Shown here: one piece after another, positions 1 to 7,117 of the stretch
Position numbering within the stretch: position 1 is the first letter of the stretch
Layout: each line of letters starts with the position of its first letter
Source: an uncultured Mollicutes bacterium
Lineage (GTDB): Bacteria > Bacillota_I > Bacilli_A > RFN20 > CAG-826
Assembly: GCA_937893635.1 (NCBI GenBank)
Contig: CALBGF010000216.1
Coordinates: 1 to 7,309 of the forward strand
Direction: 5' to 3'
DNA length: 7,309 nt
The notes under the pieces: model-generated
Database searches by the model: none
What the model was told of the DNA's origin: nothing
What the model saw: only the letters and a program-made list of their open reading frames with translations
Made by a program: the position numbers and the translations under genes

Positions 1-2285
1 TTAACTGCAGCTTTGTTATTTGTTGTACCAACAAATTTGCAATTATTAAATATAGCAGTTGTAACACCATCATTTTGTGTTTTATATGCATGAGCAAATT
101 TACCAGTTGAAGAATTAAATGTGCAGTTATCAAATTCAAAGTAATTTCCTGAATATAACCATAAATTATATTCTTTATCAGTGTTAAATACACAATTTTT
201 AAATGTTACTTTACCTGTACCCCAATATGAACCCATACCATTAATGATACAGTTTTCAAACATCATTTCTTTTGGTCTAACAAATCCGTTGAAATTTTCA
301 ACACCTAATTCAATTGTAACATTTCTAAATGTTATAGAATTTGTTCCATCAAACGAATAATCAGCATTTGCTTCACCAGATACACCTTTTGGAGTATTTT
401 TATAAATGGTTTTTCCGTTTCCTTTACCAATAAATGTTAAATCTTTATCAGTAGCATATTTCTTATTTGTTTCTTTTAGACTAAATTCACCTTCAGCCAA
501 ACTAATTGTTGCGGAATCTGTATTTTCTAATGCATTAGAAATAGATGAACTAAGATTATCATTTGAACTTACTTTAACCATATCTGTTTCAGCAAAATCA
601 ACATCATAATCAACATCAGATTTCCATTTAACTGCAACTTTAGCACCATTAAGAATATTATCTTTAGCAACAAATGTTGCGCCCTCTTTCATGCTTGGTG
701 TTGCACTAAACGCCATTAATGCAATACAACCATTAATTTCATTTCCTGTAATCTTAATATTACTTGATTCACCAGATGTAGTTGAGAATATAATAGCGTC
801 ATTTTTCTTATTTCCATCATCAATTAGATTGAATGTGTTGTTTGTAATTTCTAATGAAGCATTTTCTACAACTTGTTCATACAATTTAATTGGACGAGTT
901 GATGTAAATGTTGAATTCTTAATTGTGACTTTAGAACCTTCTCCAAGATACCAACCTAAATTAGAGGCACCAAGATTAATAAACCACATAGGATTGCTAT
1001 CGTTACCATTGTTGAATTGTTTGAATTCGCAGTTATCAATAATTAATTCTCTAGCAAATCCACCATTTTGGAATAAAGCACCATCATCAAATGTACAATT
1101 TCTTAAAATGATTTTATCTAATTTATGTGGATATGTACTTTCGTGATTATATCCATTAGCAATAATTTGTTGCCATTCAGCTTTAATACTAAGTGCACCT
1201 TTAAATGTTGTACCATCAAATATTAATGTAGCTCCATCTGGAAGATTAGTACCAATATATCCTTTTTTATCATTATTAATATCATTAGGATTTTTGCCCT
1301 TAACTCCTTCAAATGTTCCGCCTTTAATTACAAATGATTGACCTTTTTTAGCAGTATTTAAAACTGTTTCAGTTCCTTTAGGGCCTACCGCCACTTCTTT
1401 TTCATCTTCTGTTAATTCACTAGTGTTTTTAAATGTATGTAAATCAGCGATATTTTTATTACCTAAAGTTAAATTGTTTGCTTCTAATGTTTTACCAGTT
1501 AAATCAACATTAACTGTTTCAGTAGCGGTACCAATAGAACTTAGGCTATTTAATTCATCGATAGATGTGAAGTTTAAAACTTCTTCTCCATGACAAACTG
1601 TACATACGTTATCAACAAAATCATGTCCTTCGGCAACATCATATTTGTTAGTAATAAATTTTAATTTCTTAATTTGTTCGTCATTTAAGTTTGCTGTTGA
1701 GCTAGATAATAATTCATCTGCTAAACAAACAAATGAGCGTGAATCAGAACGATTACTATAAACATAACTATCTCCACCATCGATTGAATAATAAACAACA
1801 GCTTGATATTTTAATGCATAGTGATCTTTTGCTAAATCTAAAACGCCACTCATAGTATAATCATTTTCGGCTTCTTTATATATTTTACTTGCTGGGAACT
1901 CCATTGAGATAGCTCCTTTGTCTTTGCCAAATTGTTTTAAGAAAGTAAAATAATCTTTTTCACTGCTTTGTTTGTTAAAAGCATCATAAGCCGCTTGTGG
2001 AATAATAATCATTCCTAATTCTACGTTATCTTTGTAAGCACCATTACTAACAAAGTTATTATAAATATTTTTGTCCATATGTGCTTTAAATCTAATACCT
2101 ACTGCTTGTTCATCGACTCTTAAAGAAGCACTAGCATCAAATTTAATATTAGCATCTACTGCAATCGCAGGATCAGCTTTGGCTGTTTTTGTGTCAAATA
2201 AATTACCATTGCAAGTAATAACTCCTAAACCAAGTCCAGCAGTAATTACAAACAATCCAATTTTTTGCTTTGTAATTGTTTCCAT
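1..2285 (-). CDS. Secreted parallel beta-helix (pectin-lyase-like fold) surface protein, 3' end beyond window
   Basis: A frame of 761 codons stays open to the left edge, so the C-terminus is missing. Translation starts at the ATG ending at 2283, preceded by AAGGAGG (2299-2293) with 7-base spacing. The N-terminus looks like a Sec signal: a Lys pair, a hydrophobic stretch (residues 9-24), then AKA|D at 35-38 fitting signal peptidase I. Residues about 40-215 form a domain with phrases such as ASLRVDEQAVGIRFKA, a style I associate with secreted proteins of gut Firmicutes. A short GH-x6-CxxC motif follows (220-231). Repeats typical of beta-helix rungs then recur, centred on GGTF, GTTF, NCTF, NCEF, NSTF, NNTF (323-483) and NCII, NCVF, NCTF, NCKF (679-749), spaced about 19-39 residues. 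A less repetitive linker joins the two blocks. Role is probably cell-surface: adhesion, glycan binding or polysaccharide cleavage. No catalytic residues could be assigned. It is co-transcribed with the small gene upstream from the C-tract promoter. Confidence 0.85.
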   Translation of the reverse strand, partial: METITKQKIGLFVITAGLGLGVITCNGNLFDTKTAKADPAIAVDANIKFDASASLRVDEQAVGIRFKAHMDKNIYNNFVSNGAYKDNVELGMIIIPQAAYDAFNKQSSEKDYFTFLKQFGKDKGAISMEFPASKIYKEAENDYTMSGVLDLAKDHYALKYQAVVYYSIDGGDSYVYSNRSDSRSFVCLADELLSSSTANLNDEQIKKLKFITNKYDVAEGHDFVDNVCTVCHGEEVLNFTSIDELNSLSSIGTATETVNVDLTGKTLEANNLTLGNKNIADLHTFKNTSELTEDEKEVAVGPKGTETVLNTAKKGQSFVIKGGTFEGVKGKNPNDINNDKKGYIGTNLPDGATLIFDGTTFKGALSIKAEWQQIIANGYNHESTYPHKLDKIILRNCTFDDGALFQNGGFARELIIDNCEFKQFNNGNDSNPMWFINLGASNLGWYLGEGSKVTIKNSTFTSTRPIKLYEQVVENASLEITNNTFNLIDDGNKKNDAIIFSTTSGESSNIKITGNEINGCIALMAFSATPSMKEGATFVAKDNILNGAKVAVKWKSDVDYDVDFAETDMVKVSSNDNLSSSISNALENTDSATISLAEGEFSLKETNKKYATDKDLTFIGKGNGKTIYKNTPKGVSGEANADYSFDGTNSITFRNVTIELGVENFNGFVRPKEMMFENCIINGMGSYWGTGKVTFKNCVFNTDKEYNLWLYSGNYFEFDNCTFNSSTGKFAHAYKTQNDGVTTAIFNNCKFVGTTNNKAAV

Positions 2286-2303: not shown

Positions 2304-2456
2304 TTACTTTGTAGAAGTAAAACTACTCCAATCTCCACCATTATCTGGCATAATTACATCTTTGTCTTCTTCTACACCAGATACACAAATAACATCACAT
2401 ACTTTAATTTCAATGAATGTTATAAATGGTTCTTCATAAACTTTCAATTTTTCCAT
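2304..2456 (-). CDS. Small acidic protein of unknown function, 50 residues
   Basis: A 50-codon frame starting with ATG (2456-2454) and ending in TAA. A Shine-Dalgarno AAGGAG (2474-2469) lies 12 bases upstream of the ATG, which is somewhat far. The stop is 18 bases before the ATG of the beta-helix gene, and that gap holds the next gene's strong RBS, so the two are almost certainly one transcript. The product is acidic (11 Asp/Glu against 5 Lys) with no signal peptide or membrane segment. It has an N-terminal beta-like part (FITFIEIKV), a central CDVICVSG (residues 20-27) and a tail MPDNGGDWSSF (36-46). Short proteins with a DVIxxSG-like core and an Asp/Trp-rich tail resemble unnamed small proteins of gut Firmicutes. 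I recognise the style but know no function. It could be a leader peptide, a signalling peptide or a partner of the surface protein. No peptide-modifying enzymes are visible nearby. Confidence 0.65.
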   Translation of the reverse strand: MEKLKVYEEPFITFIEIKVCDVICVSGVEEDKDVIMPDNGGDWSSFTSTK

Positions 2457-2474
2457 ATGCTTATCTTTCTCCTT

Positions 2475-2490
2475 TTATCTTATAAGATAA
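2475..2490. promoter_or_regulatory. Perfect 16-base palindrome over the predicted transcription start (operator candidate)
   Basis: TTATCTTATAAGATAA equals its own reverse complement. Its centre (2482/2483) is 2-3 bases upstream of the predicted start of the surface-protein transcript, and its upstream edge overlaps the -10 box. A third half-site TTATCTT recurs at 2461-2467, between the RBS and the start codon of the small gene. The position suits a dimeric repressor. The AT-rich composition lowers the weight of a palindrome of this length. Confidence 0.45.
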
Positions 2491-2517
2491 TACCCCCCCC
2501 CCGTAGCATTTTGTCAA
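2487..2517 (-). promoter_or_regulatory. Promoter of the small gene and beta-helix unit, C10/G10 tract in its spacer
   Basis: Reading the minus strand, a perfect -35 TTGACA (2517-2512) is followed by a 19-base spacer and a -10 TATTAT (2492-2487). Ten of the 19 spacer bases are the G run. The predicted start near 2480 leaves a leader of about 24 bases before the small gene. The spacer is two longer than the usual 17, so as sequenced the promoter should be weak. A rival -10 (TAATAT) lies farther upstream around 2536-2531 but lacks a well-spaced -35. Confidence 0.65.
2493..2502. repeat. Homopolymer C10 (G10 on the minus strand), candidate phase-variation tract
   Basis: Ten consecutive C in a strongly AT-rich sequence, the only long C or G run in the window. 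It sits wholly inside the -35/-10 spacer of the surface-protein promoter. Runs of this kind change length by slipped-strand mispairing. The effect here would be a spacer of 17, 18, 19 or 20 bases for C8, C9, C10 or C11. The length may also vary between reads or be miscalled. Confidence 0.8.
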
Positions 2518-2648: not shown

Positions 2649-2654
2649 AAGGAG
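2649..2654 (+). promoter_or_regulatory. Ribosome binding site that fixes the start of the TIR-STAND gene
   Basis: AAGGAG ends 8 bases before the ATG at 2663. An in-frame GTG at 2654 overlaps the last base of this RBS, so it cannot be served by it. The ATG is therefore the start. Confidence 0.8.
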
Positions 2655-2662
2655 TGAATAGT

Positions 2663-4945
2663 ATGCCTTTCGATAGCAGATTTATAAAACATGACATAAT
2701 GATTTCTTATTCTACAAAGCGCGCGATTGTTGCTAGTGATATTGCAAGTTTATTAAATAGTAATGGCTATAATGTTTGGATTGCTCCTAACTCCATTCCT
2801 AAAGGCATTGATTATATTGATGAAATATATTCCGCAATAGACAATTCTAAAATAATCGTGTTTATATTATGTGAAGAATCGCTTGATTCTAAATGGTGTC
2901 AAAATGAGCTTATTTATGCAATAAAACAAAATAAAAAAGTTTTGCCAATTCAAATCGCCGACGTAATTCATCCATATGATAAAATGGGAAAAATATTAAA
3001 GCCATTGCAAAGAAGTCAAATTTTAAATTTATTTCCTGAATATGCTGCAAAATTATCTGAGGTTTTAAAAAGTGTACAAGTTTTATTAGATAATAATGTT
3101 TCTAATATTGTTAATCCATATCCACAAGATAGTTATGCCTTTTTTGCTAGTGATGATATCTTTATTGGAAGAGAATTAGACATTGAAAATATTCATAATT
3201 TGTTAGCAAAAAATAGAATAATTAATTTATATGGTATGGGTGGAATTGGAAAAACCTCTTTATTAAAACATTTCTTTGCTTATTATAGTAATAAGGATGC
3301 CTATCATAGTATCCATATTTGTAAATATACTAATTCCATTGAAGAAACTATTGCCGCTATACCGTTTAATGGATTTAATGACGCAAAGTTTTTAGATTCA
3401 ATTGTTGATCCATCTATCACGAAAACAAAAGCGCTCTATCAAAGAAAGATGATTTTGCTTCAAAATTTGTCAACAGAATGTCTTCTTGTTATTGATGGAG
3501 CGGATTATATAAATGAAATGGAATTAATACCTCTTACTACACTAGGTTGCTCAATTATCATTTCTTCTAGAAACAAATATAATTTTTGTGCAAATTACCA
3601 CTTAAATTCATTAAGCGAAGATTCTCTAATTCAAATGTTATTTGCTTATGCAAATGAAGAATATAATGAAAAAGAAGCTAAATATGCTCAAGAAATAGTT
3701 AAAAAGATGGGATATCATACTTTAATGATTAAACTCATTGGTAACTACGCTAACGAAATGTATTATACGTTTGAAGAACTATTTAACGATAATCTATTAA
3801 ATGATATAAATGAATTTGATAGTGATGAAGAAAAAATATCCACATTATTTGATTATTCCAAATTAAATGAAGATGAAATAGAAATGTTAAAAATTTTAGC
3901 ACTATTCCCACATGGAATTAGCAAAGGAGCAATGCAAAAAATAGATAGAACATTGCTTAGAAAATGTGCTTCTTTAGTAAAAAAAGGAATTGTAAATGAG
4001 GATAATGGATTTAGTTTACACCAAATAATAATTGAAAGTGTTATTAAAAACACATCACTAGATACAACATCATTAAAACCATTTTTATCAAGATTTATTG
4101 ATGTTTTTAGAAATATTGGTTTAGAGAAAGGCGAACTCACCATAATTATCAAACATATGTGTAATGTTTTAAAAGGTGAAGACGAATTAATGGTTTTACT
4201 ATTACATCGTTTTGGTAATTGTATTTGTGATATTAATTACGCTGATTTATTCCATGTTGATGAAGAAACTTATAATAGTCAGGATATGAACTTTTATAAT
4301 CAAAAAAATACAGATAACGAAAGATTTGAAATGTATGATTATTCCAATTATTTAAATACAAAAGCTTATGAACTCGCTTTAAAAATTAATCTAAAAGATC
4401 ATAATTTAATAAGCTATATTTTATCCTATATTGGTTCTACTCATTTTAATAAAAACGATTATGAATCTGCATTGAAATATCAACAACTAGCGTTAGAGGA
4501 AATTAAAAAAGGCGACAATATCGATTACTCTAACTATATTGTTATATTAAATAGAATTGGATTAACTGCAATTGAAGTAAATAAGTTAGAAATTGCTAGA
4601 AAATCATTCGAAGATTATATAGATACTATTAATAAGCAAAATATTAGTAACGCTAATTTATCGATGGCTTTATTTAATATTGCTAACACTTATTATAAAG
4701 AAAAAAATTATGATAAAGCAGAATCTTACTATCTAGAATCAATCAGTAAAAACACTGATAATCCTGAAACATCTTTTGGTTTATCAGAATTGTATATGTT
4801 ACTTGCTGATATTTATTTAAAAACAAACAAAAAAGAAATAGCTAGTAATTATTATCTAAAAGCAAAACATATTAAATGCAATATTATCAAAGACAAAGAT
4901 AAACTAGATAATTTCATTAATAAATATGAGGCATTATATTTATAG
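2663..4945 (+). CDS. TIR-STAND(NB-ARC-like)-TPR protein, probable anti-phage NLR-like receptor
   Basis: A 760-residue protein in three parts. A TIR domain (about 8-130) has DIMISYS, the loop APNSIPKG and SKWCQNEL. Glu82 in WCxxE is where TIR NADases carry their catalytic Glu. A STAND ATPase (about 166-400) has P-loop GMGGIGKT (191-198), Walker B LLVIDGAD (274-281), a sensor SSR (300-302) and GYHTLMI (349-355) in the place of the NB-ARC GLPL motif. A winged-helix-like part (about 400-460) ends in SLHQ, comparable to the MHD motif. About four TPR-like repeats follow (584-617, 625-658, 666-699, 708-741). Known for the class: the C-terminal repeats sense an invader, ATP drives oligomerisation, and clustered TIR domains cleave NAD+ and stop the infected cell. 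The trigger here is unknown. It has no signal peptide or membrane span, so it is cytosolic. It is transcribed alone, divergently from the surface-protein unit. Being a pure regulator without NADase activity is the main alternative. Confidence 0.88.
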   Translation: MPFDSRFIKHDIMISYSTKRAIVASDIASLLNSNGYNVWIAPNSIPKGIDYIDEIYSAIDNSKIIVFILCEESLDSKWCQNELIYAIKQNKKVLPIQIADVIHPYDKMGKILKPLQRSQILNLFPEYAAKLSEVLKSVQVLLDNNVSNIVNPYPQDSYAFFASDDIFIGRELDIENIHNLLAKNRIINLYGMGGIGKTSLLKHFFAYYSNKDAYHSIHICKYTNSIEETIAAIPFNGFNDAKFLDSIVDPSITKTKALYQRKMILLQNLSTECLLVIDGADYINEMELIPLTTLGCSIIISSRNKYNFCANYHLNSLSEDSLIQMLFAYANEEYNEKEAKYAQEIVKKMGYHTLMIKLIGNYANEMYYTFEELFNDNLLNDINEFDSDEEKISTLFDYSKLNEDEIEMLKILALFPHGISKGAMQKIDRTLLRKCASLVKKGIVNEDNGFSLHQIIIESVIKNTSLDTTSLKPFLSRFIDVFRNIGLEKGELTIIIKHMCNVLKGEDELMVLLLHRFGNCICDINYADLFHVDEETYNSQDMNFYNQKNTDNERFEMYDYSNYLNTKAYELALKINLKDHNLISYILSYIGSTHFNKNDYESALKYQQLALEEIKKGDNIDYSNYIVILNRIGLTAIEVNKLEIARKSFEDYIDTINKQNISNANLSMALFNIANTYYKEKNYDKAESYYLESISKNTDNPETSFGLSELYMLLADIYLKTNKKEIASNYYLKAKHIKCNIIKDKDKLDNFINKYEALYL

Positions 4946-4999: not shown

Positions 5000-5539
5000 A
5001 TGAAGTATTTAATTATATCTGATATTCATGGCTCTTATTACTACTTAAATAAAGCATTAAAAGTATTCAAAAAAGAAAAATGCGATAAAATTCTTATTCT
5101 AGGTGATGTTTTATATCATGGTCCAAGAAATGATTTACCAAAGCAATATGCGCCTAAAAAGATTATCCCTTTATTAAATGAACTCAAAGATAAAATCATT
5201 TGTGTTCGTGGTAATTGTGACGCTGAAGTCGATCAAATGGTTTTAAAGTTTCCAATAAGAAAAGGAAAAGAAATTGATGATAATATTACTGCTTATTTAA
5301 CACACGGTCACAAAATTAATCCGCAAAATCCATATAAAAAGAAAAAAGTTGACGTTGTCTTATTCGGTCATAGTCATATTCATGAAATAACAAACGTAGA
5401 TGGTGTTACATATATTAATCCAGGATCTATTTCTATTCCAAAAGGCGACAAAATCAACTCTTACGCTATATGGGAGAACAATACAATTACTATTTATAAT
5501 TTACTAACTGGTGATAAATTGATGGAATATACAAAATAG
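5000..5539 (+). CDS. yfcE: YfcE-type metallophosphodiesterase
   Basis: A 179-residue calcineurin-like phosphoesterase, close to the roughly 184 residues of E. coli YfcE. The metal-site motifs are all present: SDIHGS (Asp8, His10), GDVLYHGPRN (Asp36), RGNCD (Asn72), THGH (His102) and FGHSHIH (His124, His126). The YfcE signatures HGPRN, EVDQM and NPGSISIPKG are recognisable. YfcE hydrolyses phosphodiester bonds in vitro with divalent metal, mostly manganese, and its physiological substrate is unsettled. It is cytosolic. The start ATG follows GAGGTG (4987-4992) with 7-base spacing. The gene lies 54 bases after the TIR-STAND gene on the same strand and ends in TAG inside the terminator stem. Nothing links it functionally to defence; it looks like a core gene with defence genes on both sides. 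Confidence 0.93.
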   Translation: MKYLIISDIHGSYYYLNKALKVFKKEKCDKILILGDVLYHGPRNDLPKQYAPKKIIPLLNELKDKIICVRGNCDAEVDQMVLKFPIRKGKEIDDNITAYLTHGHKINPQNPYKKKKVDVVLFGHSHIHEITNVDGVTYINPGSISIPKGDKINSYAIWENNTITIYNLLTGDKLMEYTK

Positions 5540-5594: not shown

Positions 5595-6491
5595 TTAAAA
5601 AATGTTTTTGCTAACTACTATTGCTATGCCATTATTTATTGCATCATCATAGTTATAATGTTCATATAGTAATTTTTGAGTAACATTAATATAATCTAAT
5701 TCATAGAACTTACTATCAATAATCTCTTTTAACATATTTGTTATGTTATACTTTTCATTTGCAGATGGATTGTTTTTAGACAATGCCCTATCTTTTCTGA
5801 CTAATTGAATTAATTCTTTGATTTTGTTGTCAAATTTTATATATGGAATCATTTTTGCCACATCATATAGGTGTCTAGAGTCTCTATCCATCATATTTTG
5901 AATTCTATAGTCACATATAGCAAAAATTTTATCAATAAAAGTTCTGTTTAAAGACTGCACATCAAATTCGAAAAACATTGCATCAAAAGAAATAGGCAGT
6001 TGAATGTTTTTTTCTTTACAAAAACTTCCAATAAAACTATTAATTGTTTTTTTCTCCACTGGATATACCAATTGATAAAAACTTGTTTCTATAATAATTT
6101 CTAGCGGTTTATCATCAAATAAAGATTCGTAAGTAAAAACATATTTATTGTAATCATGTCTTGATTTAATCTTATTTGGATTACTTAACGTTAGATCAAG
6201 AATATCAGCAACATTAAGTATCGCCTCTTTTGCTTTTTTCTTTTCACCATCAGTTGCTTTTTTACTAAAAGATATGTCTATATCCTCAGAAAATCTATCA
6301 ATAAGTCCATATACTTTTGATAGTGATGTTCCGCCTTTAAACACAAAAGGCAAATTCGACTTGCTTAGCTCATATAAAAAGATTGATTGTATTGTATCTT
6401 TTTCAACAATAATAACGTTCTTTTTTATTTCTTGAGCTATTGTTTCAATCACTTCTCTCCAAACCATTTCGTTTCCGTTAGACCAACTCAT
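5595..6491 (-). CDS. abiEii: AbiEii-type nucleotidyltransferase toxin (type IV toxin-antitoxin)
   Basis: A 298-residue protein, the usual length for AbiEii. Nucleotidyltransferase motifs are clear: FKGGTSLSKVYG (51-62) with the GGTSL nucleotide-binding turn, then SEDIDISF (68-75) with the metal-binding pair Asp70 and Asp72. Further family motifs are DKIFAICDYR (187-196) and RDSRHLYDVAKM (203-214). AbiEii toxins are GTP-binding nucleotidyltransferases that halt growth, and in phage infection they cause abortive infection. A related toxin, MenT, modifies tRNA acceptor ends; the target of this one is unknown. It lies downstream of its antitoxin. Its ATG falls inside the antitoxin gene (14-base overlap) and GGAGG (6504-6500) lies 8 bases upstream, so translation is probably coupled. 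All motifs are intact, with no frameshift. Confidence 0.9.
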   Translation of the reverse strand: MSWSNGNEMVWREVIETIAQEIKKNVIIVEKDTIQSIFLYELSKSNLPFVFKGGTSLSKVYGLIDRFSEDIDISFSKKATDGEKKKAKEAILNVADILDLTLSNPNKIKSRHDYNKYVFTYESLFDDKPLEIIIETSFYQLVYPVEKKTINSFIGSFCKEKNIQLPISFDAMFFEFDVQSLNRTFIDKIFAICDYRIQNMMDRDSRHLYDVAKMIPYIKFDNKIKELIQLVRKDRALSKNNPSANEKYNITNMLKEIIDSKFYELDYINVTQKLLYEHYNYDDAINNGIAIVVSKNIF

Positions 6492-7080
6492 TCATTAATC
6501 CTCCATCATAAATATTTTTGTACACACACATCGGATATAAAGATATATATTTTTTTACATATTCAAAATTAACATTAGTTTTAGCCACAAATTCTTTAAG
6601 TTTTTCAACACGCTCTTTTTTATCAAGCTCAGAATACTTGTCTATATAAAGCATCAAATCTAAAAATTGAAGAGCCGAAATATTATCCTTAGTAATTTTA
6701 ACAACAGGTTTATAAACAATTATCATAAAACCATCAATGCTGTTCTTTCTTTGCTTAGTTGTTGCCTTATTAGATGCAACTTCAATTACAGCAGGATTTT
6801 GTGTTGTAAACCCATATTTATTTAATAAAGTTAAGCCCGTATAAAAGCCCGAATAATTCTGTATGTATAACTTATTAACATATTTATCTATAGAAATTTT
6901 GCCTTCTGTGCCTAAAATGGTTTTATATTTTTTATAATATACTCCATTATATAATCTTGCTAAGACACCAATATCAGTTAGTCTTTTAAGTTCTTGCCTT
7001 AAATAATTTTTACTACTGCATTTGAATTCTTCAATAAATATTGGCTCTCCATTGGCATAGTTATTTAAATTTAACTCCAT
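6478..7080 (-). CDS. abiEi: AbiEi-type antitoxin / transcriptional autorepressor
   Basis: A 200-residue protein with an N-terminal winged helix-turn-helix (about 8-50) holding LRQELKRLTDIGVLARLYNGVYYKK, shown here in part as LKRLTDIGVLARLYNGVYY. This is the typical AbiEi/DUF6088 recognition-helix-and-wing pattern. The next conserved block is YTGLTLLNKYGFTTQNP (80-96). The C-terminal half is probably the antitoxin domain. AbiEi counteracts AbiEii without forming a stable complex (type IV) and represses its own promoter by binding inverted repeats. The start is the ATG at 7080, with AGGTGG (7094-7089) 8 bases upstream. An in-frame GTG at 7092 lies inside that RBS and is rejected. The gene ends in TAA, overlapping the toxin start. 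The antitoxin-toxin order matches the family. Confidence 0.85.
   Translation of the reverse strand: MELNLNNYANGEPIFIEEFKCSSKNYLRQELKRLTDIGVLARLYNGVYYKKYKTILGTEGKISIDKYVNKLYIQNYSGFYTGLTLLNKYGFTTQNPAVIEVASNKATTKQRKNSIDGFMIIVYKPVVKITKDNISALQFLDLMLYIDKYSELDKKERVEKLKEFVAKTNVNFEYVKKYISLYPMCVYKNIYDGGLMNELV
6500..6504 (-). promoter_or_regulatory. Ribosome binding site of the toxin gene inside the antitoxin gene
   Basis: GGAGG on the minus strand, 8 bases before the toxin ATG (6491-6489), read as codons of the antitoxin's tail (GGL). An ATG at 6495-6493 is in the antitoxin frame and is not the toxin start. Confidence 0.75.
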
Positions 7081-7117
7081 AATTAAAACCACCTAACAAT
7101 CTTGAAATTTTATTTTT

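Follow-up and report, generated by a model that had tools for sequence, protein, structure and literature searches.

Does a run of ten guanines set between the -35 and -10 hexamers of a promoter act as a length-variable switch for the genes behind it? The question is raised by a contig of 7,309 nucleotides from an uncultured Mollicutes bacterium (CALBGF010000216.1, assembly GCA_937893635.1), which is analysed here over its whole length and is referred to as the window. On its plus strand positions 2487-2517 read ATAATA-C10-GTAGCATTT-TGTCAA, with the C run at 2493-2502; on the minus strand this is TTGACA-AAATGCTAC-G10-TATTAT, a promoter that precedes a small open reading frame (ORF) and a gene for a large, probably exported protein. 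We consider it likely that the locus is a slipped-strand, spacer-length phase-variable promoter that works like those of porA, tp0126 and the mycoplasma Vlp genes, and we would have put this slightly more strongly were it not for the recounted pairs of equal run length and for the absence of the layout from the nearest genomes.

Recurrence of the promoter layout

The C10 run between TTGACA and TATTAT, with its 19-base spacer, had been pointed out in a first-pass annotation, and the sequence read on the minus strand bears this out. It is the sole run of G or C of at least seven bases in a window of 27% GC, and it has the makeup of a spacer-homopolymer promoter, being a run of at least eight bases between recognisable -35 and -10 hexamers, with a 19-base spacer that is near 17. 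Other genomes were reached through the metallophosphoesterase encoded in the window (5000-5539), whose best match stands at 60-62% (L001, in genome G001), and were searched with the pattern TTGAC N6-14 G7 N0-10 TANNNT, or with a slightly tighter version of it in the later surveys, the reversed pattern serving as control. Five of the 11 initial genomes matched and the control matched none of the 11. These matches include G005, G006 and G007, the records of which are titled Anaeroplasma bactoclasticum, Anaeroplasmataceae bacterium and uncultured Anaeroplasma; the named records reached, including these two Anaeroplasma and the one Anaeroplasmataceae bacterium, are metagenome-assembled genomes, and we take the carriers of the layout to be gut commensals.

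The layout is frequent but patchy across the surveyed genomes (family, order and class are the ranks assigned by the search tool). Within the Anaeroplasma family 19 of 55 genomes carry it, one of them, G003, by a single match that sits inside an ORF and resembles chance; in the remaining genomes of the order the count is 0/105, and in a second family, which was picked because G244 already had sites, it is 8/18. The reversed control gave zero in each family, both of which were chosen for a member with the layout. Class-wide, 52 of 395 genomes carry it (12 of them from the Anaeroplasma family) and the control matches seven. The earlier view that this is a rare design in such genomes therefore does not hold for this group. 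In a sample of a Clostridia-like class 25/291 genomes matched against 10 in the reversed control, and these matches are therefore for the most part noise; a few sites do look good (G738, G719, G758, G601 and G785). A scan of IMG/VR returned 15 stretches, mostly with G7 or odd spacing; L133 has a good site. Several genomes are rich in pattern matches, overlapping ones being counted apart: 14 in G257, nine each in G005 and G486, and eight in G244. G439 reaches 22, which are atypical in having short spacers: TTGACTta-G10-TAT[GA]AT occurs there in several copies (L385-L388), with an apparent spacer of 12 and the run beside the -35 hexamer, and the actual -10 hexamer may be located further downstream.

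Spacer length and polarity of the runs

Runs of at least eight guanines number 102 in 18 of the 19 matching genomes of the Anaeroplasma family, and 93 of them lie at least 40 nt from the end of their stretch. Promoter hexamers matching at least 11/12 positions flank 45 of these 93, compared with 0/93 both for the reverse complement and for the reversed control, the figure of 45 being inflated by about one site per genome because the 19 genomes were picked for a match. Many of the remaining runs lie in ORFs, and a few, situated at contig ends, resemble poly-G artefacts.

Spacing was compared over 109 sites, which were hand-collapsed from the family and class-wide matches. This set keeps 45 of the 47 distinct family sites; identical within-genome repeats among the class-wide sites were mostly collapsed, and genomes with many matches are represented among the matches listed. 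About a dozen sites were omitted for poor hexamers or context, namely those in G310, G345, G380, G173, G212, G426, G403, G504 and G344, G244:C16, one site of G257 and one of G476. Among the matches listed, the spacer is 17-19 bases long in 78/109 sites, the run abuts the -10 hexamer in 103/109, and the fixed part of the spacer is most often nine bases long, so that G8 makes a 17-base spacer. Fixed part and run length are inversely related in the same set of matches (rho -0.33, p 5e-4; the 109 sites are not independent).

The polarity of the run is strict. A C-run version of the layout, sought in 40 of the 64 genomes matched in the family, class-wide and second-family surveys, was matched in one of the 40 only, G042, and this match is the G tract of that genome read from the opposite strand. 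Given this absence of C runs, the run may serve in addition to place a G immediately upstream of the -10 hexamer, or the sites may have descended from one ancestral cassette.

Two further conserved arrangements were seen. At L147, L211, L214 and L220 a run without TTGACA, AATTATACT-G10-TATAYTTA, is exactly G10 in four genomes. At L243, L244 and L245 the motif GAAA[GA]CGC abuts the -35 hexamer of three related poly-G promoters; we take this motif to be cre-like, and the genes there look TasA-like.

Run-length differences between related promoters

We compared 37 pairs of sites with at least seven guanines and flanks at least 75% identical (two of the pairs are coding tracts), and the run length differs in 16 of them. 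The clearest differences lie within single genomes: G9 and G10 in G257, with 0/61 flank mismatches, and G8 and G9 both in G486 and in G296, with 1/70 mismatches each. Orthologous promoters of G006, G048 and G052 carry G10, G10 and G12 (5-6/70 mismatches), and four sites of G797 that have TTGACAAAAATCAAC in common carry G9, G9, G10 and G10. A poly-G tract in the signal-peptide coding region of an exported protein points the same way: it is G8 and in frame in three genomes (L213, L219 and L237; in a fourth, L206, the contig end cuts it), and G005 (L205) has G10, which is out of frame.

Genes under poly-G promoters in other genomes

The fetched loci comprise 89 promoters, 81 of them with a callable first gene (the window and loci examined later are outside this set). 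According to a home-made rule, 55 of the 81 first genes are export-like, 14 with a lipobox, in comparison to 164/553 background ORFs (odds ratio 5.0). In G486 paralogous exported-protein genes stand in a row, seven of them sharing a contig and an eighth lying on a different one, and a near-identical poly-G promoter precedes each member.

Pfam models were compared at a cut-off of 1e-5 with 20 proteins, namely 19 of the 81 first genes and P0004, the counterpart of the large ORF of the window. BspA-type leucine-rich repeats were found in four, Listeria-Bacteroides repeats in two, and a GDP-mannose-dehydratase-type domain, a glycosyltransferase, an acyltransferase, IclR, RyR and an AAA-helicase domain in one protein each; at this cut-off eight of the 20, P0004 included, had no match. 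PADLOC applied to seven first genes gave two matches, Mokosh MkoA (L158) and PDC-S30 (L291). By these predictions the first genes tend towards export, and some are concerned with glycans or defence.

Two individual loci deserve mention. At L158 (G056:C2) the first callable gene, 200 nt below a G11 promoter, encodes a Mokosh MkoA-like helicase and is a candidate for a phase-variable defence gene. At L292 (G217), also with a G11 promoter, the first gene encodes a Cys-containing peptide of 39 aa that looks by eye like the precursor of a ribosomally synthesized and post-translationally modified peptide and has no match in NCBIfam.

Proposed mechanism and known systems

According to the proposed mechanism, slipped-strand mispairing within the G run would add or remove guanines; because the run abuts the -10 hexamer, each such change would shift the distance between the two hexamers by one base, and the changed distance would alter the binding of RNA polymerase. 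With the 9-base fixed part of the locus, G8 would give a spacer of 17 bases and G9 one of 18, and the assembled state, G10, gives one of 19, which is predicted to be weak. Both genes, the small ORF and that of the exported protein, would be switched jointly. This is in essence what the first-pass annotation had proposed, and the proposal gains support by comparison, from the recurrence of the layout, the 17-19-base spacers, the near-identical promoters that differ in run length and the lean towards export, rather than from the locus itself. The annotation further predicted that C8 or C9 would be ON, C10 low and C11 or more OFF, and suggested that the protein may be a surface antigen, adhesin or phage receptor. 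The locus probably belongs to a multi-locus set, as carried by several members of the Anaeroplasma family and by other Mollicutes-like groups, so that further poly-G promoters would be expected elsewhere in the organism of the window.

The mechanism is already known from other bacteria. In Treponema pallidum, PMC7864442 places a poly-G tract between the -35 and -10 elements of tp0126, a putative surface-protein gene, with a reported optimum at a 17-base distance. This is the likeness to our locus, shared with the poly-G promoters of tprE/G/J/L; however, tp0126 belongs to a spirochaete pathogen and drives other genes, while the locus described here lies in a 27% GC genome of another phylum. The same paper places the poly-G of Neisseria meningitidis porA clearly between -10 and -35, and porA and opc (poly-C) resemble the locus in that homopolymer length alters the promoter spacing or the -35 area, but they are genes of a Gram-negative pathogen, and opc uses a C run, the version that was not found in 40 genomes here. 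As to mycoplasmas, a dinucleotide repeat in the promoter spacer of M. mycoides Vmm varies, and the many-gene plan of the Mycoplasma hyorhinis vlp family (both described in PMC10502178) is matched by G486, G257 and G797, in which several paralogous surface-type genes have a homopolymer promoter of their own; the vlp and Vmm systems, in contrast, use an A run or a dinucleotide repeat before other gene families, and here the run is of G.

The host group, the scale and the G-only polarity appear to be new. The open-licence literature, which leaves out most subscription papers and all preprints, yielded no report of the layout in this group and nothing on phase variation in RF39. We are evenly divided on a wider proposal, by which Mollicutes-like bacteria (the Anaeroplasma family and several other groups of the class) would possess genome-wide phase-variable promoters, in which a G run, always on the coding strand and in most cases abutting the -10 hexamer, tunes the spacer before genes for exported proteins, for glycan enzymes and for defence. 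The G-only polarity hints at two roles of the run, to set the spacing and to put a G next to the -10 hexamer. If true, phase variation would operate here as a large system of many loci, in bacteria other than the well-studied pathogens; should reads confirm that the length varies, existing metagenomes would allow the question to be tested.

Alternative explanations

Several observations weigh against a phase-variable promoter. Run length is equal in 21 of the 37 similar-flank pairs; two ortholog trios are constant at G8 and one pair has G13 in both members, and 7/8 copies in G486 carry G9. Homopolymer length is, moreover, prone to misjudgement by assemblers. The correlation between the fixed part and the run is not significant in the Anaeroplasma family alone (p 0.12), spacing alone does not predict the absence of C-run versions, and one vote per protein cluster cuts the export excess to 21/45 (odds ratio 2.1, p 0.028). 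The layout is patchy, being absent from 36/55, 10/18 and 343/395 genomes in the three surveys, and the genomes nearest to the window by metallophosphoesterase, G001 (61%) and G002 (57%), have no match; the tree of this protein leaves the window at a fork that it shares with several Mollicutes-like rows and with some titled Clostridia.

Some of these observations would be accommodated by a static promoter, in which the G run is kept for another reason, such as a G upstream of the -10 hexamer in an extended -10-like contact, the binding of a regulator or melting, and the changes of length are neutral. The strict polarity and the orthologs of constant run length speak for it. However, such contacts do not need 7-13 identical bases, and runs of this kind are inherently slippery; the lengths differ between near-identical copies, and the spacers cluster at 17-19. 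We regard a static promoter as unlikely, and return to the phase-variable one as the better account of the locus.

That the run stems from sequencing or assembly, as a poly-G read end or a wrong homopolymer length, is very improbable: artefact-like poly-G does occur at the contig ends of G048:C338, G048:C77, G050:C16 and G051:C175, but the run at the locus is internal, and the layout with consensus hexamers is found in dozens of assemblies while the reversed controls are zero or nearly so. Least credible of all is a chance run in AT-rich intergenic DNA, in which promoter-like hexamers are indeed common (a generic scan of the window found 43, against a shuffle mean of 55, and omits the poly-G promoter because it permits spacers of 16-18 only), but in which 2000 dinucleotide-preserving shuffles of the window gave a run of at least seven 42 times, a run of at least ten never, and never a run of at least seven within a promoter of at least 11/12 matches and a spacer of 15-21, quite apart from the recurrence in other genomes.

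Genes and features of the locus

The features of the locus are collected in Table 1. The two genes are separated by 18 nt, and the second, starting at 2285, runs out of the window. Of its 761 residues inside the window, all but 3 are shared with P0004 (1117 aa). The first-pass annotation had described a small gene followed by a secreted beta-helix protein. The gene order is confirmed; the predicted surface or exported character comes from the second gene, with its signal-peptide-like N-terminus by a home-made hydrophobicity rule, and neither a C-terminal membrane span nor LPxT was found, P0004 having no anchor. The beta-helix is hinted at by the precomputed assignment of PF13229 to P0004, no Pfam model having matched the part of the ORF inside the window at E 1e-3. 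A single-sequence fold of the exported protein has many short strands and a mean predicted local distance difference test (pLDDT) of 43, and its quality is too poor for a structure search. P0004 was not found in the 55 genomes of the Anaeroplasma family, in a search that ran without a positive control.

Table 1. Features of the poly-G promoter locus, in coordinates of the window
Feature	Coordinates	Strand	Basis
-35 hexamer TTGACA	2512..2517	-	6/6 match to consensus, read from sequence
Promoter spacer AAATGCTAC + G10, 19 bases	2493..2511	-	Read from sequence
G10 homopolymer (C10 on +), abutting -10; proposed slippage tract	2493..2502	-	Run scan, shuffles
-10 hexamer TATTAT	2487..2492	-	5/6 match to consensus
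16-nt palindrome TTATCTTATAAGATAA without mismatch, overlapping the -10 and the expected start	2475..2490	no strand	Sequence scan
Ribosome-binding-site-like AAAAGGAG	2469..2476	-	Read from sequence
50-aa ORF, first gene of predicted transcript, small protein of YEEP...DVICVSG type	2304..2456 (ATG at 2456)	-	ORF list, searches
Probably exported protein, N-terminal 761 aa of about 1117; second gene	3..2285	-	ORF list, P0004, N-terminus

As a probe, the 50-aa ORF matched three proteins and none of the viral or genome contigs searched, and its alignment gave weak N-terminal matches in 7/55 genomes of the Anaeroplasma family. In L253 and L258 a small ORF with Y..P and D[VI]I..S stands directly before an exported gene, without poly-G, and L254 and L255 have similar ones. 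G296 (L294) mirrors the order of the window: a G9 promoter is followed by a small ORF of this kind and by an exported protein of 811 aa, and a second copy of this promoter in the same genome carries G8.

The palindrome is a possible operator or 5' hairpin. Folding of the leader RNA gave a z of -1.6, with 13 of 200 shuffles folding equally well; an Rfam scan of the window and a phage search with 2280-2660 gave no match.

Two neighbouring loci have the look of defence genes. A divergent gene on the plus strand (2654-4945), adjoining the poly-G promoter, encodes a protein of TIR, NB-ARC-like ATPase and TPR parts, a defence-type architecture. On the minus strand, PADLOC models match an AbiEi/AbiEii pair at 5595-7092, which is predicted to be a phage-defence system of the type IV toxin-antitoxin class.
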